From: an uncultured Luminiphilus sp.
GTDB taxonomy: Bacteria; Pseudomonadota; Gammaproteobacteria; Pseudomonadales; Halieaceae
Length of the DNA: 45,183 bases
Assembly (NCBI GenBank): GCA_938084055.1
Contig: CALKDK010000023.1
Span: 1 to 45,183 of the forward strand
Reading direction: 5' to 3'
Position 1 is the first letter of the stretch, and every line of letters begins with the position of its first letter. Both the position numbers and the translations under genes were made by a program. This document shows, piece by piece, positions 14,899 to 25,339 of this stretch. The notes under the pieces are model-generated. The model had not been told where the DNA came from and did not search any database. It saw nothing but the letters and a program-made list of their open reading frames with translations.

Positions 14899-15924
14899 TT
14901 AGGGGGCAGATTGCTTTGACATCGTCAGGGCGAGGTCCTCTATCATATCTTCCTGACCCCCTACAGTACCCCGCCGGCCCAGCTCGACTAGTAGATCTCG
15001 GGCCGGGATACCGTATTTTTCTTCGGCGCGCTTGGCAAACAATAAAAACGAACTGTAGACGCCGGCATAGCCCAGAGTGAGCGCATCCCTGTCTATCCGT
15101 ATCGGATCGTCCATTATGGGCACGACGTGGTCCTCTGCGGCATCCATGATCTTGTACAGGTCGATACCGTCCTCTACACCCATCCGGTGTAAGACCGCGA
15201 CAAAGACCTCGAGCGGCGTATTGCCCGCCCCAGCGCCAAGTCCCGCTACAGACCCGTCGATCCGGTGGGCCCCGGCCTCGATTGCCGCGAGAGAATTGGC
15301 AATACCCATACCAAGGTTGTGATGCCCGTGAAAACCGATTTCAGTCGCTGGCTGGAGTGCGGTGCGCAATGCCCCAATTTTTTCAGTGACCTCGTCGGGC
15401 AGCATATAGCCCGCGGAGTCCGTGCAGTAGATGCAGTTAGCCCCGTAGCCCTCCATTAGCAGTGCCTGTTGCACCAAATGCTCTGCTGGAATCATGTGCG
15501 CCATCATGAGAAACCCGACCGTATCAAGTCCAAGTGCTGCGGCCATGCCGATGTGCTGTTCTGATACGTCGGCCTCAGTGCAATGTGTGGCCACCCTTAA
15601 GGTGCTAACGCCGAGATCAAAGGCCATTTTTAGGTGGTCGATGGTGCCAATTCCAGGAAGCAGTAGCGCCGAAATCCTTGCCTGACGCATCTTGGGAATG
15701 ACGGCGCTCAGGTAATCCCGATCGCTGTGTGCCGGAAATCCGTAATTCACGGAGGCGCCACCCAAGCCGTCGCCATGGGTAACTTCGATCAACGGCATCC
15801 CAGCATCATCGAGGGCCTGGGCAATATCGACCATTTGCTCAAGGGAGATCTGGTGTCGTTTTGCATGCATACCGTCCCGGAGGCTCATGTCGTGCAAAAT
15901 AACGCGCTTTCCTGAGAGATCCAT
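14899..15924 (-). CDS. 4-hydroxy-2-oxovalerate aldolase (DmpG/MhpE type)
   Basis: Cleaves 4-hydroxy-2-oxoacids to pyruvate plus an aldehyde (acetaldehyde, or propanal for longer substrates) in the last part of meta-cleavage pathways. The protein has 341 residues. The Mn-binding and catalytic residues of the family are in place: Arg16-Asp17 in MSLRDG, and His199 and His201 in GFHGHHN. The family's C-terminal communication domain is present. The start at 15924 has AAGGAG eight bases upstream. In the family this enzyme forms a channelling complex with the acylating aldehyde dehydrogenase, encoded here 12 bases upstream. Acetaldehyde versus propanal preference cannot be read from the sequence by eye. 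Confidence 0.92.
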
Positions 15925-15936
15925 GTGGCGGACTCC

Positions 15937-16845
15937 TTAAGACGATCGGGGGGGAAGGACGAAGTTGCCCGCAGCGACTTCCTCGGCAAAGATTTCTGCG
16001 GTTCGCAATCCCGCGGCCGTCATGATATCGAGGTTGCCCGCATAGGTCGGTAGAAAATCGCCGAGACCCGCCACCTCCAGAAAAATTGACACGCGACTGC
16101 CATCAAAAATGGGACCATTAATCAGGCGATAACCGGGTACGTAGCGCTGCACTTCTGCGATCATGTCATGTACCGATGACGTAATTTCCGACCTTTTGGG
16201 CTCTCCCACAACGAGGCAGTGCACGGTATCACGCATGATCAGTGGTGGCTCAGCGGGATTGATAACAATGATGGCTTTGCCTTCCTCAGCTCCACCCACC
16301 TCAGCGATTGCCGATGCCGTTGTGCGCGTGAATTCATCAATATTTTTGCGCGTGCCGGGTCCGACTGATCGCGAACTTACCGTAGCTACAATCTCCGCAT
16401 AGGCCACGCCCTGAACCCTTGAAACGGCTGCCACCATAGGTATCGTGGCCTGCCCCCCGCAGGTCACCATGTTGACGTTCATTGAGAGGGATTTGGTGTG
16501 GTCCGCCAGATTAACGGGAGGAATACAGAAGGGCCCAATGGCGGCCGGCGTCAGGTCGATCGCAATGATGCCATGTTCTTCGAGCACCCTGGCATGCTCC
16601 TTGTGGGCGCCTGCAGAGGTTGCATCAAATGCAATCCTTACCTCATCTTCCAGAAGGCCAGATAGAGCACCTGCCAATCCCGCGGAGGAGGTTTTTAATC
16701 CACGCTCCCTCGCCCTGGTGATACCCTCTGACGCCTCGACGCCTACCATCCACACAGGATTGATCCATTCGGAGCGCAGGGCTTTATACAATAGATCGGT
16801 TCCAATGTTTCCGGGACCAATGATCAAGGCGTTTAATTTTTGCAT
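15937..16845 (-). CDS. Acetaldehyde dehydrogenase (acylating), DmpF/MhpF type
   Basis: Converts the aldehyde released by the aldolase, with NAD+ and CoA, to an acyl-CoA (acetyl- or propanoyl-CoA). The protein has 302 residues. The Rossmann motif is [10 protein letters not shown] (9-18). The catalytic thiol is Cys129 in [10 protein letters not shown], and a [17 protein letters not shown] segment typical of the family follows. It lies between the hydratase gene (16 bases) and the aldolase gene (12 bases) in the order seen in dmpEFG. The paired genes normally encode a heterotetramer with an internal aldehyde tunnel. Confidence 0.93.
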
Positions 16846-16861
16846 CAGGAATTTCTCAAAT

Positions 16862-17644
16862 CTATGTGAAGTTAACGGTGCATTCGCCTACACCCAACAC
16901 ACGCACTGTCATAACGTCTCCTGGCACGACTGGTTCAAGTGGCACAAGGCTCCCGGACAGTATGATGTCTCCCGCATCGAGGCTAATGCCAAATTCTCCC
17001 AAGGTATTTGCCAGCCACGCGACACAGGTAATTGGATTTCCCATGGCGGCGCTTCCTTTTCCTGTGGAAATCACGGTTCCATTTTTCTCCACTTCCATGC
17101 TCAGTGCAGCCAAGTCTGTTGCCGATGGATTTATACCGGCACTGTCGTTGTATGCAAACAGTCCGCATGACGCGTTGTCAGCCACGGTATCCTGAATTTT
17201 TATACGCCAGCTTTCTATTCTTGAATCGACAACTTCAAAGCAGGGAAAAACGGCCTCCGTTGCGGCGATGACATCCGCCTCAGTAATGCCCGGTCCTTGC
17301 AGTGTGCCCCCCAGGCGAAAGGCGAGCTCGCCTTCTGCCCGGGGCTGTATCAGTAGCTGGGAAATAGGCATTTCAGAACCAAATTGCATCGCATCGGTCA
17401 GAAAACCAAAGTCCGGCTGATGGACATTGAGCATATCCATGACTGCAGCGCTTGTAACGCCAATTTTTTTGCCAATGATGCGTTCACCGGCAGCAAGTCT
17501 TTGCTCCAGGAATTTCAGTGAGATTCGGTAGGCGTCAGGAATAGAAACGTCGGCGTGGGTGTCAGTGATGGGGTCTATGACCCTGCGATTGATCAGCGCG
17601 TCGTGCAACTGCCCTGCAATAGTGTTGACGGTCTGTTGATCCAT
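16862..17644 (-). CDS. 2-oxopent-4-enoate hydratase (DmpE/XylJ/MhpD type)
   Basis: Adds water to 2-hydroxypenta-2,4-dienoate-type products of ring cleavage, giving 4-hydroxy-2-oxoacids for the aldolase. The protein has 260 residues. It resembles DmpE and XylJ across its length: [59 protein letters not shown] and [12 protein letters not shown] are all typical. Decarboxylases of the same fold (DmpH/XylI) are the main alternative, but gene order and motifs favour the hydratase. It is the first gene of the three-gene module and follows ppx by 80 bases on the same strand. A steroid-type HsaE/TesE function is also possible. Confidence 0.88.
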
Positions 17645-17724: not shown

Positions 17725-19287
17725 CTAGTCCAGTTGCAGTGTGACGCCCAACTTGCCGATACTCGGGATCGCTGCCCGAAGTTCTGAAGTGGTCAGGGGG
17801 TGGCTGTCATACCAGTCGTGGGGGAAGCTAAGTTGGAGTTTGTTGCTCTTGGCGGTCACGGTACAGCTGGCTAAATCCTCAAATCGTTCTACCCATTTGA
17901 AAACAACTGCCAGCCGCAGCAGCACCAGCATTTTGGTTACCCTTGCGCGCCTCTGCTCGGGAATAACATCCATTAGATCCTCGCTCAGTTTGCCGCGCTG
18001 GCCCCTGACCAGGGTGCCGAGTAATTCCTGTTCACCCTGCGAGAAGCCGGGTAGATCACAGTTCTCCAGCAGATAGCCCGAGTGCCTGTTGTAGTGCTTT
18101 GCTGAGATACCAGTGCCAATCGCGTGGCAGCGCCCCGCCCAGCAAAGCAGTTCAGTGTCCGTGGACGTCAGCTCCCAAACGTCCGCTACGCAGCCTGTTA
18201 ACCAAGCGGTACTTTGGGCAACCATTTCCGCCTCCGCTGAATCACTGGAGTAACGGCCAACAAGCGCATTGATCGAACGTTCCCGCACATCCTCGTGTTG
18301 TAAGCGGCCCACCAGATCGTAGATTAGTCCCTCGCGCAGTGCCCCGGTGGAGGTGCGCATGCTGCTGATATTGAGTTCTTCGAAAATGGCCATCGCAATT
18401 GCTATCCCTGCCATGAGCACCCGGCGGCGCTTGTCGCTTAATCCCTCGTAGCTAATTTGATCTGCATGTCCATATTTCAGAAGTCGCTTGCGCAACTTGT
18501 CCAGGGACTTACCATCGATACCTGTCTCCCGCCAGCCCTCTAATGCAATGAGCGCCTCTATCGCCTGAAACGTGCCTGACGAACCCACGGCTTCCTGCCA
18601 GTGTCTTGTGTTGTAGCCTTTGCGTATGTGGGATACCTCCACCCTTGCCCTCTCAAAGGCGGCATTGAAACCCTTTTTGCTAATCTCCCCGTCGGGAAAA
18701 AACTCTCCGGCATAACTCACGCAACCCAGCTGGAGGCTCTCCATGCGCGTAGGTTCAAAGCGCTGACCAACAATGAATTCGGTACTGCCGCCACCGATAT
18801 CGACCACCAGCCGACTGGCCTCGTCATCTGCCAGTGAGTGCGCTACACCGAGATAAACGAGTCGTGCTTCCTCTCGACCATAAACGACATCGATGGGAAC
18901 CCCGAGAATTTGTTCTGCAGGATCGGTGAATAATCGTCGATTCTTGGCCCTGCGCAGTGCGTGTGTGCCGACAACACGGATCTTTGACGGCTCCACACTT
19001 TGTAGCAACTGATCAAACCGCTCGAGGCATGCCAGTCCTCTCTCGATAGCAGCCTCCGACAGCTGTCGGCCACTGAGTCCAGCTGCCAGCTGGACTTTTT
19101 CCGCCAGCGTGTGGATGGGCCTGATTTCACCGTGCTCCAGGCGAGCCACGATCAGGTGAAATGAATTGCTACCAAGGTCCAGGGCAGCAAGAATGCTGCC
19201 GTCTGGTAATGGGGTGGGGATTGAGGGCACAGCAGTCCTTGTTCTGAGTGATGATTGGAGCTTAAAACAAACCTTGGACGAGGTCAT
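17725..19287 (-). CDS. ppx: Exopolyphosphatase (Ppx/GppA family)
   Basis: Hydrolyses terminal phosphates of inorganic polyphosphate; GppA relatives act on pppGpp. The protein has 520 residues. The actin-like ATPase fold starts with LAALDLGSNSFHLIVAR, followed by VVGTHALRRAKN, YGREEARLVYLGV and the phosphate-2 motif VVDIGGGSTEF. A C-terminal HD-like domain is present (CHAIGTGISAKHYNRHS). The 500-residue length and the C-terminal domain favour Ppx over short single-domain homologues. The first 33 residues precede the conserved core and may include a few surplus codons. The gene follows alr by 28 bases on the same strand and may be cotranscribed with it. Confidence 0.9.
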   Translation of the reverse strand: MTSSKVCFKLQSSLRTRTAVPSIPTPLPDGSILAALDLGSNSFHLIVARLEHGEIRPIHTLAEKVQLAAGLSGRQLSEAAIERGLACLERFDQLLQSVEPSKIRVVGTHALRRAKNRRLFTDPAEQILGVPIDVVYGREEARLVYLGVAHSLADDEASRLVVDIGGGSTEFIVGQRFEPTRMESLQLGCVSYAGEFFPDGEISKKGFNAAFERARVEVSHIRKGYNTRHWQEAVGSSGTFQAIEALIALEGWRETGIDGKSLDKLRKRLLKYGHADQISYEGLSDKRRRVLMAGIAIAMAIFEELNISSMRTSTGALREGLIYDLVGRLQHEDVRERSINALVGRYSSDSAEAEMVAQSTAWLTGCVADVWELTSTDTELLCWAGRCHAIGTGISAKHYNRHSGYLLENCDLPGFSQGEQELLGTLVRGQRGKLSEDLMDVIPEQRRARVTKMLVLLRLAVVFKWVERFEDLASCTVTAKSNKLQLSFPHDWYDSHPLTTSELRAAIPSIGKLGVTLQLD

Positions 19288-19315: not shown

Positions 19316-20389
19316 TTAAGAGCGCCAGTTTCGCGGGGTTCTGCCGGTGAGGCGGGTGAGCAGCTCGTAGCCTATCGTGTCTGCGTATTGCGCTACCTCA
19401 TTGACCAGCAGGTGTTGGCCCCAGAGCTCTACCGGCGTGCCAATCTCACAGTCTGGATGATCGGTTACATCGACTGTGATCATGTCCATGGAGACCCTGC
19501 CTGCAACCGGACAGATTCGGTTGCCGACCCGCACCGGTGTGCCATCCGTTGCTGACCTCGGATAGCCATCCCCATAGCCCACGGGAATAGTAGCAATACG
19601 ACTGGCCCGCGTTGTCATCCATCGCCCCCCATACCCTACTGATTCTCCTGCGGGTACCGCCCTCAGCGCCATGACCTGTGAAGTGAGGCTCATGACCGGC
19701 CTTAGCGTTTCAGCATCTGCGGGCTTGGCGTGGGCTGCACCGTACAGCATGATTCCGGGCCGTACCCATTCGCTGTTGGGAGCCAAGCGGTTAATGAGGC
19801 CTGCTGAATTGGCCAGGCTCCCGGTTGCCGAAGCCGTTGGTTGGTGCACCGATTGCCAGCGCGCCTGCTGCCGCACCGTGAGGGCCGAGTCTGGATTTTC
19901 ACCATCTGCGAAATGACTTGTAATGACTACTGGACGAGCACCCTGGCGCTGCAGTTCAGCGACGATTTTAGGAAGTTCCCCAGGATCAAAACCCAGCCGG
20001 TGCATTCCCGTATCCACTTTGATCCAGAGGCTGGGCAGGTTTTGGGTGCCGGATTTTTCCAGTAGATCCAACTGGTGGGGGGCATGCACAACAGACATCA
20101 GGTCATATTGGCCAAGGGCCAGCACATCCTCACCGTCGAAGGGGCCTTCAAGGACCAGAATGGGTAAGTTGATCCCGGCCTCGCGTAGCACCACGGCCTC
20201 CTCGCATACGGCCACCGCAAAGCCATCCACTATAGAGCTCAGGGCTTCACTACAGGGCAATAGTCCATGGCCGTAAGCATCGGCTTTAACTGCTGCCATG
20301 AGCTTGGCTGAGCCCGCCATCGTGGCCGTGCATCGGGCATTGTGGCGCAATGCCGTCAAATCAATTGTTATTTTCGTTGGACGTGGCAT
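19316..20389 (-). CDS. alr: Alanine racemase
   Basis: A PLP enzyme interconverting L- and D-alanine for peptidoglycan synthesis or D-alanine use. With the start at 20389 the protein has 357 residues, the family norm. The PLP lysine is Lys35 (AVKADAYGHG) and the catalytic tyrosine is Tyr253 (VGYGGRW). The C-terminal segments CPVAGRVSMDMITVD and GYELLTRLTGR are also conserved. An upstream in-frame ATG at 20482 would add 31 residues inside the preceding gene, so the 7-base spacing start is preferred. Its position after a D-amino acid transaminase gene and the 5-oxoproline genes suggests a role in D-amino acid recycling as well as cell-wall supply. Confidence 0.95.
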   Translation of the reverse strand: MPRPTKITIDLTALRHNARCTATMAGSAKLMAAVKADAYGHGLLPCSEALSSIVDGFAVAVCEEAVVLREAGINLPILVLEGPFDGEDVLALGQYDLMSVVHAPHQLDLLEKSGTQNLPSLWIKVDTGMHRLGFDPGELPKIVAELQRQGARPVVITSHFADGENPDSALTVRQQARWQSVHQPTASATGSLANSAGLINRLAPNSEWVRPGIMLYGAAHAKPADAETLRPVMSLTSQVMALRAVPAGESVGYGGRWMTTRASRIATIPVGYGDGYPRSATDGTPVRVGNRICPVAGRVSMDMITVDVTDHPDCEIGTPVELWGQHLLVNEVAQYADTIGYELLTRLTGRTPRNWRS

Positions 20390-20396
20390 GCCGCTC

Positions 20397-21251
20397 TCAG
20401 AGGGTAAAGCGGTGACGGGCGAAGAGGGTCTGTGCCTGAGCCCAGACGGCGCCCGGCCGGCCATCACCGACCGGCTCGTCATCGATGGCGATCACGGGAG
20501 CAATTTCCTTGGTCGAGCTGGTGAGCCAGACCTCATCAGCAGCCAGGAGTTTGGCACGGGACACGGTTTCTTCGTAAATGGGCATCCGCTCGTTCCGAAG
20601 AATGTCCACCAGCATGTTCCGAGTGACGCCGGGTAATTTGGCCTGGTCGAGTGGTGGCGTGACAATACGGGACCCCTCCACAACGAACACGTTGCAGGCA
20701 GCGGCTTCTGTGAGCTCATCCTGTTCATTGAAGAGGAGCACTTCATCGGCACCGGCATTGACTCCCTCCATCATATGCAGGACGTTACCAAGCAGTGCGA
20801 CTGACTTGATATCACAGCGCCGCCAGCGCCTGTCGTGGGCTGTAGCCACCCGGTAGCATGCAGCTTCTGCAGGATTGCCGTTGCAGGGGGCATTCACCTC
20901 AAACGGGTAGGCAAATACGGTTTGTCGGCATTCGCTGGGAAATTTGTGGTTGCGGATCAGGGATGTGCCCCGTGTAACCTGAAGATATAAACCCAGATGC
21001 TCGCCTTGATCTTTCTCAATCAGGCTAGCAAGCAAACTCTGCCAGGCTTCTGTGGATAGGGGATTGTCTAGCTGGATAGCGCTTAAACCCTGGTCGAGGC
21101 GCTGCATATGCCGCGCAAAGCCGACCATATTGCCTCCGTAGCTGGGGATGACTTCGTAGATCCCATCCCCGAATAGAAAGCCACGGTCCATGGGTGAGAT
21201 TCTGGCGTCTTCCAGGGGAACAAATTCGCCGTTCAAGTAAGCCGTTGTCAT
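20397..21251 (-). CDS. dat: D-amino acid transaminase (class IV, PLP)
   Basis: A fold-type IV aminotransferase, most probably D-alanine:2-oxoglutarate aminotransferase, which makes or consumes D-glutamate. The protein has 284 residues. It begins TAYLNGEFVP and shows PMDRGFLFGDGIYEVIP, the PLP lysine Lys149 in CDIKSVALLGN, and Glu182 in LTEAAACNVF. These agree better with D-amino acid transaminase than with branched-chain or 4-amino-4-deoxychorismate enzymes. The ATG overlaps the stop of the upstream gene (ATGA) and has GGAGG nearby. Co-occurrence with alanine racemase and a D-glutamate cyclase-like gene supports the D-specific call. Confidence 0.87.
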   Translation of the reverse strand: MTTAYLNGEFVPLEDARISPMDRGFLFGDGIYEVIPSYGGNMVGFARHMQRLDQGLSAIQLDNPLSTEAWQSLLASLIEKDQGEHLGLYLQVTRGTSLIRNHKFPSECRQTVFAYPFEVNAPCNGNPAEAACYRVATAHDRRWRRCDIKSVALLGNVLHMMEGVNAGADEVLLFNEQDELTEAAACNVFVVEGSRIVTPPLDQAKLPGVTRNMLVDILRNERMPIYEETVSRAKLLAADEVWLTSSTKEIAPVIAIDDEPVGDGRPGAVWAQAQTLFARHRFTL

Positions 21252-22093
21252 CGCATACCCCCTCCAATAATAAGCTGTTTGATTTCTTCTATTACGGCTT
21301 CACCCACGCCTGACTCGAAGCCATCTTCGGTCTGGGTCGGTTGATGAGTCACGCCGTCTACTGCACCGAGTTCGATGCAGCGCGCCAATAGCGCACTGCT
21401 ATCCAGCCAATCAAGTATAGGACGCTTGCAGAGCGCCTCTGCAACGCCAATGACGGCATAGGCACCCCAGTTGGAGACGTCGGCGACAATCAGTTCGTCG
21501 CAACCAATTCGGGCAGGTTTGATATTCAGTGACTCAAGGATCGGACCTGCGCGTCCCATGCCCGCTTCATTCCCGCCATCACCGATCGCAATCACTGGAC
21601 ATGTGGCCAATTCCAGCAGGGGTTCGACGGGGCGACATTCTGTGCTTATATCCTCTCCGGCAATATTGTAAAAACGTCCATCTTCTGCCGCGCCGGGTCG
21701 CTCGATGACGACGATAACTGACGGCGCGAGATCCAGAAGGAGTGCCTCCGATTCAGCTCGCGCCCCTTCATAGTCGAAGCTTTGCAGCGCCCAGGTTCGA
21801 ACGGAGGTGCCCAGGGCTCCCGTCACGGTTTCGCCAGCGAGTATCCAGGGTCTTGCTCCCATGGATTCAAGAAAATGATACAGCGCGAATGCGCCGGGAG
21901 GTCCATCGGTCTCGAACGTCCCGCCAACCGGAAAACCCGTGCATATCATGACGTTACCCGATGCCGCTACCAGGGTCTGGGCTGCACGGAGGCAGTAGCC
22001 CGGCTCAAGATGACGACGGACACGTGCCATGCCACGCGGGTTTCTTGACACCAACACCGCCTCGATAGCCGTACTGATCGCTGACGCGTTCAA
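21248..22093 (-). CDS. D-glutamate cyclase C-terminal-like protein (DUF4392)
   Basis: A 281-residue protein of the DUF4392 family (PF14336), which forms the C-terminal part of animal mitochondrial D-glutamate cyclase (DGLUCY, C14orf159). That enzyme converts D-glutamate to 5-oxo-D-proline. The family features seen are an RNPRGMARV start, a CTGFPVGG motif, ETDGPPGAFAL, VVIERPGAAEDGRFYN, a glycine-rich IGDGGNEAGMG loop and DVSNWGAYA. The start codon is TTG at 22093, inside a TTGA overlap with pxpC and with GGAGA six bases upstream, so coupled translation is likely. The other DGLUCY half is encoded four genes upstream. The bacterial stand-alone activity is inferred, not established here. Confidence 0.82.
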   Translation of the reverse strand: MNASAISTAIEAVLVSRNPRGMARVRRHLEPGYCLRAAQTLVAASGNVMICTGFPVGGTFETDGPPGAFALYHFLESMGARPWILAGETVTGALGTSVRTWALQSFDYEGARAESEALLLDLAPSVIVVIERPGAAEDGRFYNIAGEDISTECRPVEPLLELATCPVIAIGDGGNEAGMGRAGPILESLNIKPARIGCDELIVADVSNWGAYAVIGVAEALCKRPILDWLDSSALLARCIELGAVDGVTHQPTQTEDGFESGVGEAVIEEIKQLIIGGGMR

Positions 22094-23070
22094 GACCGTC
22101 TCCAGAGGGTATCCAGTGCTTGCAGGTGTGTTTCCTCGTAATGTTCAGACAGCCACACCAGTTGATCTGCTTCGGTGACACTTACGCTGCGAAAATTGAT
22201 TGCTACGCCGGGGCGGCTCTGCCCAAGTCGAGCACAGTCCTGCGGTATAACGGCTCCCATCTGGGGATAGCCACCCATGGTTTGCCGGTCGTTGAGTAAG
22301 ACGATCGGCTTGCCGTTGGGGGGGATCTGTATGGAGCCAAGACATGTGGCTTCGGACCAGAGCTGGGATAGTCCGGTGTCCAGCGCGTCACCCTCCAGTG
22401 GAATGGCCATGCGGTTGGCGGCACCCGTGACGGTGAAGGTGGCGGTGGCGAGTTTCTCCCTGCAGGATTCCGTCACGTCGTCGTATTGAAATCCTGGTAC
22501 GAAGCGCAGCGTAAGGGGCTCTGGCATTTCCCGGGGGCCCTCTACGGGCGGTGGAACAAAAGCTCGAAATGCACTGTGCGCGGCTGGGGATGTGCCATCG
22601 CAGGAACCAATCGGGAGCTGATCACCTGTGCTCAGGGCCTGGCCGTCGAGACCACCCAACCCTTCGCGGATCACGGTACTGCGACTCCCAAGCGTTGGTA
22701 CTACGTTGATTCCACCCGCTACGGCCATGTACGTGTAAGTGCCGGCACTGCTGGGGCGAACTTCAATCTGCGCGCCGGCAGGCACGGGCAGGGGGCGCCC
22801 CATAAGCTGAGCGTCGCCATTGATAATGACCGGCGCTGTGGCACCACAAAAGGCGACCAGGGTATCGCAATGCACCCTCAGGTCCATTCCTGCCAGCACA
22901 ATCTCCAGCCCCGCCGAGTTGTCTGGATTTCCCAGCAGACGATTGGCGCATCGAAGTGCGAAACCATCCACGGCTCCTCCGTTGGTAATGCCCTGGCCAA
23001 GGAGGCCGGGCCGACCCGCATCCTGGAGGGTAGCGAGGAGGCCCACCTTTGCCACCTCAATGGTTGTCAC
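22090..23070 (-). CDS. pxpC: 5-oxoprolinase subunit C (biotin-dependent carboxyltransferase family)
   Basis: With PxpA and PxpB it forms the ATP-dependent bacterial 5-oxoprolinase, which opens 5-oxoproline to glutamate. The protein has 326 residues of the KipA/YbgK family. It opens with VGLLATLQDAGRPG, then GGAVDGFALRCANRLLGN. An ATAPVIING strand follows, and it carries GGYPQMGAVI near the C-terminus. The start is GTG at 23070 in a GTGA overlap with pxpB, with GGGAGG seven bases upstream. Fused KipI-KipA forms and urea amidolyase modules share this domain, but the pxpA-B-C order settles the call. Confidence 0.92.
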   Translation of the reverse strand: MTTIEVAKVGLLATLQDAGRPGLLGQGITNGGAVDGFALRCANRLLGNPDNSAGLEIVLAGMDLRVHCDTLVAFCGATAPVIINGDAQLMGRPLPVPAGAQIEVRPSSAGTYTYMAVAGGINVVPTLGSRSTVIREGLGGLDGQALSTGDQLPIGSCDGTSPAAHSAFRAFVPPPVEGPREMPEPLTLRFVPGFQYDDVTESCREKLATATFTVTGAANRMAIPLEGDALDTGLSQLWSEATCLGSIQIPPNGKPIVLLNDRQTMGGYPQMGAVIPQDCARLGQSRPGVAINFRSVSVTEADQLVWLSEHYEETHLQALDTLWRRS

Positions 23071-23744
23071 AGAATGCCTCCCAGTTCCAGAAACCGATCC
23101 CTGCTAATGGGTCTGAAGCTGATCTGATCACCCACTGCAATAAGGCCCGGGGGAGACTGTCCCAGGTCAAAAAGTTTTAGCGGGCACAGCCCGATGAGAC
23201 GCCAACCGCCGGGCGAGACGCTCGGGTAGACGGCTGTTTGTCGATCAGCAAGTGCGACACTCCCTGCTGGAACCTCCCGTCGCGGTGCATCGAGGCGGGG
23301 TATTGTGAGGGGTTCGGGCGTATCTCCCAGGTAGCAGAACCCAGGTGCAAAACCGGTCGCGTAGGCGTTGTATACCTCCGAACTGTGCATTTCGACAACG
23401 TCATCTGCAGAGACCCGGCAATACTCAGCAACCGCAGCAAGGTCTATCCCCGACTCTTCGGAATACCAGACCGGCACTTCGATGCGCCGGCCCGAAAGGG
23501 GAACATCGGATCGGTCGGCACCCAATGACTCAACGGTATCCGCCAGCCGATCTCGGGTAATCACTGCGGGGTCGAAGAAGACTGTGAGCGTTTGGTAGCC
23601 CAGCACGCTATCGACAATTCCCCCGGGATGTTTCTCGACGAGCAGTTGCCGCAGGCGCAACAAACTGGCCGTTACGCCAGGGCTGGGCGCGTCATCATGA
23701 CTCAGCCTAAGGCCCGTAACACCTGCAGGACTCCATCGCATCAT
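23067..23744 (-). CDS. pxpB: 5-oxoprolinase subunit B (KipI family)
   Basis: The second 5-oxoprolinase component, related to Bacillus KipI, a histidine-kinase inhibitor. The protein has 225 residues. It shows the family sequence RWSPAGVTGLRL, then HPGGIVDSVLGYQTLTVFF. The signature PGFCYLG is followed by a REVPAGSVALADRQTAVYP segment and SPGGWRLIG. The ATG at 23744 follows the pxpA stop with no gap (TGA ATG ATG), and a second ATG is adjacent. It overlaps pxpC by 4 bases. Confidence 0.93.
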   Translation of the reverse strand: MMRWSPAGVTGLRLSHDDAPSPGVTASLLRLRQLLVEKHPGGIVDSVLGYQTLTVFFDPAVITRDRLADTVESLGADRSDVPLSGRRIEVPVWYSEESGIDLAAVAEYCRVSADDVVEMHSSEVYNAYATGFAPGFCYLGDTPEPLTIPRLDAPRREVPAGSVALADRQTAVYPSVSPGGWRLIGLCPLKLFDLGQSPPGLIAVGDQISFRPISRDRFLELGGIL

Positions 23745-24539
23745 TCAGGCCGGTGGCGTTCGCAATGCGGTCCGGATGGCCTTCAGCATCTCCACAGCGG
23801 CCGGGGTGTCTCCATGCACGCACAGGGTATCAGGGACGATACTGAGTTTATGGCCCTTGACGCTGCGAAGGCTCCCTGAAGCAATATTGGCAGCCTGCGC
23901 GACCGCGGCTTCAAGATCGAGTAGGGCGTCAGGGCTGCTTCTTGGGACGAGGTAGCCGGCCCGCGTATAGCCGCGGTCTGCGAAGGCTTCAAAGCGCAGG
24001 CCGAGGCCATATTCAAAGCCGAGTTCAACCGCTTTTTTGTCCCTCGGCGTGGCAAGCATTACCAGATCAAGTGAGCGATACCATGACGCTACGGCATACA
24101 TAACCGATTTCAGCAGCGCCTCGTCACCGAGCATGTCGTTATATAGCGCACCGTGGGGTTTCACATAGCTCACCCGGGTACCGTGGGATCTCGCCATTCC
24201 GTCCAAAGCTGAGATTTGGTAATGAATGGTATCGATGAGTTGCTGGCCGGTGAGGGCCATGGAGCGTCGTCCGAATCCCTGCAAATCGGGATAGGCCACG
24301 TGGGCTCCAATTTCAACCTTGTGCTTCTTGGCGAGGATCAGGGTCTCGCGCATGACTGAGGGGTCACCACCGTGAAAGCCGCAGGCTATGTTGGCGCTAT
24401 CGATAAGCGGCATGACGGCCTCGTCGCAGCCCATTTTCCATGCGCCGAAGCTCTCACCCAAATCGCAATTGATTTTGATGAGTTTTCGGACTGGTGTCTT
24501 TCGGCTTCTGCGCCGGACAATTCGTTTAACGGCTTTCAC
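23745..24539 (-). CDS. pxpA: 5-oxoprolinase subunit A (LamB/YcsF family)
   Basis: The TIM-barrel-like subunit of the 5-oxoprolinase. The protein has 264 residues. The hallmarks are [43 protein letters not shown], a [15 protein letters not shown] motif and LCVHGDTP near the end. The conserved domain normally begins within two to four residues of the protein start. Here the only usable start is the GTG at 24539, which overlaps the upstream stop (GTGA) and adds about 18 very basic residues ([11 protein letters not shown]). No ATG, GTG or TTG lies in frame between it and the domain. Confidence 0.93.
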
Positions 24540-25339
24540 AGTAGTGCGAGTCCTGCATTTGTTTTGTCGGTGACCAGCATATGCCCGGGCGCATGAGTGA
24601 AGGCAAGCGGAAGTCGCGCATTCTCCAGCGCCACCTGCGGCGTTACGCCGCAGGCCCAGAACACGGGTATTTCGCCCTCCGCGATCGTAACTGAATCACC
24701 AAAGTCAGGGTTGGATACATCCTCGATACCTATCTGGGAGGGATCTCCGAAATGTACGGGTGCTCCGTGCACCGAGGGGAAACGCGTGCAAATCTGTATG
24801 GCTCGGATGGCATCTTTCGGTTTCATGGGGCGCATGCTGACGACTAGATTACCCCAGAATGGACCCGCCGGATGGCAAGCTTGGTTGGTGCGGTACATGG
24901 GTACATTGACCTTTTCGGTGATGTTGCGTATTTCCAGTCCATCCGCCAGGAGAGCCTCTTCAAAGGAAAATGAGCAACCCAACGCAAAAGCGACATGGTC
25001 TTCCTGCCAGTCTGCGCAGAGATCCACGGGCTCTGCCGTGAGTTTTCCCGATTCCCATCGCCTGTAGCGCGGCAAATCTGTTCGCACATCGATATCTTTT
25101 CCGAGCTCAGGAAGGGATGTGTCCCCGCTGCTGGGACTGGTGGCGAGTAGTGGGCAGGGCTTGGGATTGCGGCGGCAGAAGTCAGCAAAATCATGGGCGA
25201 ATTCCGCGGGGACTATGACCAGATTGCACTGCACGAACCCTGCCGCCATGCCACTGGTCGTGCCGCTGAAGTCCCCACTGCGTGCGGCAGCACGAAGCTC
25301 CCCCGGCGTTTTTTGGGTGTCACTGCTGTCCGCTGCCAC
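24536..25339 (-). CDS. UPF0317 / DUF1445 family protein (D-glutamate cyclase N-terminal-like, putative hydro-lyase)
   Basis: A 267-residue member of the UPF0317/DUF1445 family (Bacillus YcsI). Its homologues form the N-terminal part of animal D-glutamate cyclase and are often encoded beside pxpABC. The family features are [55 protein letters not shown], an early N-V-P-M-Y-x-T-N motif, and ITHAPGHM-type sequence near the end. I place the start at GTG 25339, which has a perfect GGGAGGA five bases upstream. Longer in-frame starts up to 25516 run into the divergent gene. It is the first gene of the operon. Confidence 0.85.

Follow-up and report, generated by a model that had tools for sequence, protein, structure and literature searches.

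A run of seven genes on the minus strand (19316-25339, in the order DUF1445-pxpA-pxpB-pxpC-DUF4392-dat-alr), tightly packed within a stretch of 45,183 nucleotides from an uncultured Luminiphilus sp. (contig CALKDK010000023.1 of assembly GCA_938084055.1; hereafter the window, meaning the whole stretch), would probably constitute an operon for the supply and the drain of D-glutamate in a lineage without the glutamate racemase MurI. Bacteria need D-glutamate to build their wall, and its usual source is taken to be MurI. In the proposal favored here, the pair alr-dat most likely provides both D-alanine and D-glutamate for the cell wall: the alanine racemase Alr would make D-alanine from L-alanine, and the D-amino acid transaminase Dat would transfer the amino group of D-alanine to 2-oxoglutarate, yielding D-glutamate for MurD. 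The remaining genes most likely represent an optional drain, in which the DUF4392 protein, probably together with that of DUF1445, would cyclize surplus D-glutamate to 5-oxo-D-proline, and PxpABC would process 5-oxoproline further at the expense of adenosine triphosphate (ATP); located beside a reversible transaminase, such a drain would keep D-glutamate at a set level. The supply half is better supported than the drain half, which is the weaker of the two, and we infer from the genes the reactions themselves, the way in which Dat runs, what becomes of the 5-oxoproline, and which enantiomer it is.

MurI, Dat, and MurD in the Family and the Order

The model of the glutamate racemase found no match in the window's genome, a draft of 2.92 Mb that is 82.75% complete. 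In the family sample (101 genomes of the window's GTDB family, its own genome included) MurI exceeded the cut-off in a single genome, while the control genomes gave a match in 10 of 14 cases, eight of them over the cut-off. The gene in question (G099:C53:14851-15513, locus L008) may be a contaminant or genuine, the guanine-cytosine content of its contig being compatible with either reading (0.686 and 0.655 vs. 0.715). Apart from the window, which encodes it, Dat of the family type was recorded for 97 of the 100 remaining family genomes.

The order sample extends this picture. Among its 293 genomes, 231 gave a match to the MurI model (216 over the cut-off), and none of these is among the 14 genomes of the window's own family. 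Taking as MurI-less also 12 genomes with only weak matches (E-values above 1e-20, the strongest being 8.5e-15 in G618), as MurI-bearing G626 (2.6e-30) and G663 (2.0e-21), and as Dat-bearing those genomes whose best match to the window Dat is below 1e-40, plus G608, whose Dat is distributed between two contigs (3.2e-28 for the best piece), a Dat-like gene is found in 65 of the 74 MurI-less genomes and in 40 of the 219 MurI-bearing ones; outside the family itself the proportions are 51/60 and 40/219. As relatives are not independent, the count was redone within those 12 families in which MurI is present in some genomes and missing from others (108 genomes), giving 43 co-occurrences of Dat with the lack of MurI against 33.9 expected (p <= 5e-5, by a permutation within families that ignores kinship inside each family). 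The genus g344 (family f206) offers an example, where Dat occurs without a MurI match in three genomes (G525, G634, and G652), and MurI without Dat in three others (G596, G615, and G670).

Within the window's genome, three other proteins match PF01168, namely YggS, LysA, and one that resembles LysA but stays under its cut-off, and the two other PF01063 proteins are IlvE and one that is nearest to the branched-chain transaminases, below every cut-off. This leaves alr as the single alanine racemase, and dat as the single Dat-like gene, found in the available part of the genome.

If D-glutamate is really made, MurD would be expected to be of the type that adds it. The L-glutamate-adding MurD2 is described as having Glu and Arg at the places of Asp182 and Lys348 of the E. 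coli enzyme (PMC8788868), and in the alignment the MurD of the window's genome has Asp and Lys at these sites, that is, the D-glutamate type. The same two residues occupy both sites in every one of 30 further loci examined from the family; the Glu/Arg pair of MurD2 was found neither in these nor in the genome's own MurD, MurL not having been searched for. The murD model exceeded its cut-off in 96 of the 101 family genomes.

Conservation of the Gene Run

The neighborhoods compared in the family (97) were picked by their match to dat, and hence are unable to reveal its loss; their genes were assigned by tblastn with the proteins of the window. The seven genes follow one another in the same order in 74 of the 97, with gaps between adjacent genes that are mostly of 50 bases or less and never above 300, a conservation of order that exceeds chance. 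Seven other neighborhoods are cut by contig ends and display no contrary order, three have a run without pxpB and pxpC, and two a run without DUF1445. The remaining 11 hold dat-alr only, without the cyclase/pxp block at the locus (pxp genes elsewhere were not searched), and in these 11 genomes no match to PF14336 was found anywhere. The gene alr directly follows dat in 95 neighborhoods, and the other two end at contig ends. In G019 (L117) and G045 (L143) the dat match falls into two overlapping pieces, through either a broken reading frame or a misassembly.

On the tree of 94 Dat proteins, the state with dat-alr only amounts to two changes, or two losses if the presence of the block is older. 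The run without pxpB does not mean that PxpB has been lost: each of the five genomes tested (G001, G002, G003, G471, and G508; pxpC was not searched) encodes a PF02682 protein outside the run, and so do G584 and G729. A second set, of named DUF4392 loci (the best 80 of 312, many from the same genomes as the family sample, with which it overlaps), gave 58 loci with all seven genes and 76 with dat behind DUF4392; its best matches, with 72-83% identity, belong to Luminiphilus, the marine gamma proteobacterium HTCC2080, and other Halieaceae, the family in which the NCBI taxonomy places Luminiphilus.

An initial annotation of this DNA had regarded the run as something dedicated, and had proposed a survey of gene order in related genomes. 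The survey indicates that the run is kept as a unit in relatives, and that it is not peculiar to this genome, but the rule in the family and present, whole or in parts, in several other families of the order. At the level of the class PF14336 is rare (3 of 370 genomes, the window's own included). In the order sample, 44 of the 45 carriers of DUF4392 also have Dat, leaving out of the count G556, whose single PF14336 match is below the cut-off, and in 29 of the 31 carriers outside the window's family both genes lie within 1.5 kb of each other.

The forms taken by the run outside the family are diverse. Two genomes (G584 and G729) have DUF1445-DUF4392-dat without pxp genes or alr in the run. Pseudoalteromonas donghaensis (L374, on the 843 kb replicon NZ_CP032091.1) has a shorter form, DUF1445-pxpA-DUF4392 followed by a class IV aminotransferase, that lacks pxpBC and alr and comes immediately after a gene for a family 3 glycoside hydrolase. 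In five loci read from other families a gene is inserted between DUF4392 and dat, where the window has none (L229, 5162-6082; L233, 7757-8737; L260, 7218-8114; L275, 7270-8175; L278, 7623-8528). This gene was considered as an enzyme of the pathway and rejected, as it reads as a LysR-type regulator in all five and is confirmed by profile in L229 and L233. The run of G478 (L222, 5127-10070) comprises pxpABC, one further gene, dat, and alr, with no cyclase gene matched, and the gene between pxpC and dat, a candidate for a substitute cyclase, was discarded because its translation reads as a phosphoribosyltransferase.

Taken together, the failure to find MurI, the D-glutamate type of MurD, the presence of Dat in genomes lacking MurI, and the retention of dat-alr where the cyclase/pxp block is missing argue for alr-dat as the likely supply of the wall. 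The 11 genomes with dat-alr only, along with the cyclase accompanied by Dat in 44 of 45 carriers and close to it in 29 of 31, suggest that the supply is the fixed part, and that the cyclase/pxp block is an added and dispensable one, dependent on Dat.

The Genes and Their Products

The seven minus-strand genes, described in the initial annotation as following one another with overlaps of 4 bases or gaps of 0-7 bases, are borne out by their coordinates and by the family profiles, all seven having Pfam matches over the cut-off. The first, DUF1445 (UPF0317; 24536-25339), starts with a GTG at 25339, with GGGAGGA upstream, and matches PF07286 ("D-glutamate cyclase") and NF003969 ("putative hydro-lyase"), both over the cut-off, with 3db9 and 2pif as solved relatives. 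It overlaps by 4 bases with pxpA (23745-24539), the LamB/YcsF subunit A of 5-oxoprolinase (PF03746; NF003816 with 317.3 bits, cut-off 213; solved relatives 2xu2, 1v6t, 2dfa, and 1xw8, ybgL), after which, with a gap of 0 bases, comes subunit B, pxpB (23067-23744; PF02682; TIGR00370 with 164 bits, cut-off 145.55; solved relatives 2phc and 5dud, YbgJ). Subunit C, pxpC (22090-23070; PF02626; solved relative 5dud, YbgK), overlaps by 4 bases with both pxpB and DUF4392. Thus, all three subunits are present, PxpA and PxpB over their NCBIfam cut-offs, and PxpC over that of TIGR00724 (237.8 vs. 230.2) but below that of the equivalog NF045499 (195.5 vs. 500).

The DUF4392 gene (21248-22093) encodes a D-glutamate cyclase-like C-terminal domain (PF14336 with 192.6 bits, cut-off 27.9; no NCBIfam match), and the only kind of solved relative that its protein matches is that of TON_0340. 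Its residues E61, D63, E131, D172, E176, and D246 align with the six acidic residues by which TON_0340 binds metal (PMC5132392), and all six are kept in the 115 loci with a match among the 159 given. This protein would convert D-glutamate to 5-oxo-D-proline.

With another overlap of 4 bases follows dat (20397-21251), whose product is a transaminase of fold-type IV (PF01063 over the cut-off) and presumably a D-alanine:2-oxoglutarate transaminase. When aligned to solved D-amino acid aminotransferases it keeps K149, Y32, R100, and H102 (R100-N-H102), which we take to be the pyridoxal phosphate lysine, a residue like Tyr31, and, in the R-x-H motif, the carboxylate trap. In the 158 loci with a match (159 given) the Arg is kept in 158, the Lys in 156, the Tyr in 157, and the His in 152, being replaced in the other 6. 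After a gap of 7 bases comes alr (19316-20389; start ATG at 20389; PF01168/PF00842; TIGR00492 with 323.5 bits, cut-off 168), whose catalytic Lys and Tyr are K33 and Y251 in the numbering of the residue comparison, both found in 120 of 120 loci with a match (159 given).

Downstream of alr by 28 bases and on the same strand lies ppx/gppA (17725-19287), which is outside the pathway and possibly co-transcribed with the run; the gap between both genes is of 50 bases or less in 29 of the 61 family neighborhoods where the two were matched. A search between 17500 and 25700 gave not one sigma-70-like site, where chance alone would give 4.2, and eight terminator-like sites, near the 6.2 expected at random. 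Further on (14899-17644, minus strand), three genes read from their translations as the lower part of an aromatic meta-cleavage pathway: an aldolase, an acylating aldehyde dehydrogenase, and a hydratase.

Discussion

Several observations weigh against a supply-and-drain operon that takes the place of MurI: (i) the incompleteness of the window's own genome weakens the absence of MurI there; (ii) eight further family genomes have weak matches to the MurI model, although the four that were scanned are other racemases of the Asp/Glu type, which may or may not act on glutamate (the amino-acid racemase TIGR00035 in L009, the cysteate racemase CuyB in L011, and PF01177 in L010 and L013); (iii) three of the 101 family genomes (G004, G064, and G068) have neither MurI nor Dat of the family type, perhaps due to incomplete assemblies; (iv) the window Dat scores under both NCBIfam cut-offs for this enzyme (220.2 vs. 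277.45 in TIGR01121 and 239.7 vs. 320 in NF005209), even though these are its top-scoring families; (v) the 40 MurI-bearing genomes of the order that also carry Dat speak against a simple exchange of one for the other; (vi) nine of the 74 MurI-less genomes have no Dat-like gene, so that another source of D-glutamate must exist in the order; and (vii) the cyclase is found together with MurI in 12 genomes of the order and is missing from 41 of the 74 MurI-less ones, and thus the drain is not tied to the loss of MurI. Seven of the nine genomes mentioned in (vi) belong to the family f200 (G502, G531, G557, G601, G639, G692, and G739), where MurD2/MurL would be a first guess for the source.

To these must be added the stereochemistry of the drain. 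The closure of the lactam and its hydrolysis leave the alpha carbon untouched, going from D-glutamate to 5-oxo-D-proline and back to D-glutamate, and because of this the drain in its proposed form could turn out to be a futile cycle. The initial annotation had read the seven genes as a unit dedicated to the recycling of D-amino acids, in which the cyclase and PxpABC would lead from D-glutamate back to glutamate. The gene set itself stands, as a single D-alanine/D-glutamate/5-oxoproline set that is conserved in relatives and keeps its catalytic residues, but recycling as its main role was rejected, since MurI is lacking in the family and dat-alr is kept without the cyclase/pxp block. The genes alr and dat, the only ones of their kind found in the genome, look rather like a wall supply that outlasts the block. 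Nor does the proposed route close: the hydrolysis of 5-oxo-D-proline would return D-glutamate at the cost of ATP, and, with the alpha carbon untouched, the route would be a futile loop, or would end at 5-oxo-D-proline, or would need an inversion that is not seen. The product reported for the D-glutamate cyclase is 5-oxo-D-proline (PMC5339696), and the pxpTABC genes of C. glutamicum are reported for 5-oxo-L-proline (PMC13274462).

Among the alternative explanations, the scavenging of D-amino acids seems unlikely, yet deserves some consideration. According to this, D-alanine and D-glutamate from wall turnover or from dying neighbors would be converted by Alr, Dat, and the cyclase to pyruvate and glutamate. 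The gene content fits, a supply role is not needed in the 12 genomes that carry the cyclase plus MurI, and in Pseudoalteromonas the short run without alr stands next to a glycoside hydrolase. Against it are the lack of MurI in the family, and the conservation of dat in all 97 of the dat-chosen neighborhoods, with alr next to it wherever the contig extends far enough, as opposed to a cyclase/pxp block that 11 of them do not have. Furthermore, the absence of gaps above 300 bases leaves no room for a further gene inside the family runs, the flanks not having been surveyed for transporters or peptidases.

A more doubtful proposal would give the drain an exit. The operon could constitute a second, ring-closed exchange between D- and L-glutamate in cells that have abandoned MurI, in which the DUF4392 protein would close D-glutamate, the ring would be inverted, with DUF1445 or PxpA as candidates for this step, and PxpABC would open 5-oxo-L-proline to L-glutamate with ATP. 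In other words, Dat would supply D-glutamate, the branch would remove it, and both would set its level.

The repair of metabolite damage appears improbable. Here D- and L-glutamate would cyclize by themselves and PxpABC would reopen the ring, the DUF1445 and DUF4392 proteins being metal-dependent enzymes, for example phosphatases, that act on a related small molecule. TON_0340, a relative of the DUF4392 protein, is reported as a weak Mn-dependent phosphatase (PMC5132392), and the description of pxpTABC for 5-oxo-L-proline in C. glutamicum (PMC13274462) is in agreement. However, the mouse DUF4392 protein is reported to turn D-glutamate into 5-oxo-D-proline (PMC5339696), and repair alone does not predict a cyclase accompanied by Dat in 44 of 45 carriers. 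Finally, that the pxp block and dat-alr are adjacent merely by inheritance, with no functional link, would accord with the absence of the block from 11 of the 97 neighborhoods that keep dat-alr, but is very hard to reconcile with the proximity of DUF4392 and Dat in 29 of the 31 carriers outside the family, even where the run lacks the pxp genes or alr.

Relation to Known Systems and Significance

Among the literature matches listed (titles and the beginnings of abstracts, with most subscription papers outside the coverage), no description of the seven-gene operon was found. The mammalian D-glutamate cyclase is named DGLUCY, and in it DUF1445 is fused to DUF4392. This protein (mouse 9030617O03Rik, human C14orf159) shares with the window the DUF4392 family, and is reported to convert D-glutamate to 5-oxo-D-proline (PMC5339696); in contrast, the window divides the putative cyclase between two genes, within a bacterial operon that also encodes Dat, Alr, and PxpABC. 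With the PxpABC 5-oxoprolinase (YbgL/YbgJ/YbgK of E. coli, pxpTABC of C. glutamicum) the window shares the complete set of subunits, with A, B, and C in that sequence; it differs in a PxpC that is far under the equivalog cut-off, and in that its block is followed by cyclase, Dat, and Alr.

In PMC8788868, D-amino acid aminotransferases are named beside MurI as general sources of D-glutamate, there without a tie to an operon of cyclase and 5-oxoprolinase, while here such an arrangement is family-wide in a marine gammaproteobacterial clade. The MurD2/MurL route of Xanthomonas and its relatives, described in the same work, is likewise a path without MurI to the D-glutamate of the wall, but the MurD of the window's family has the residues of the D-glutamate type. 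Each kind of enzyme is therefore already known, and what appears to be new is the union, in one conserved operon, of a supply that likely replaces MurI and a drain of D-glutamate.

In summary, a coastal marine family seems to be free of MurI, and to have as its likely replacement Dat and Alr, in a single operon beside enzymes that putatively destroy D-glutamate. This raises the question of how the level of D-glutamate is set in cells that have no racemase dedicated to it, for which the exchange of MurI and Dat within several families of one order provides a natural comparison, and the favored proposal offers a concrete and testable function for the DUF1445 and DUF4392 proteins of bacteria.

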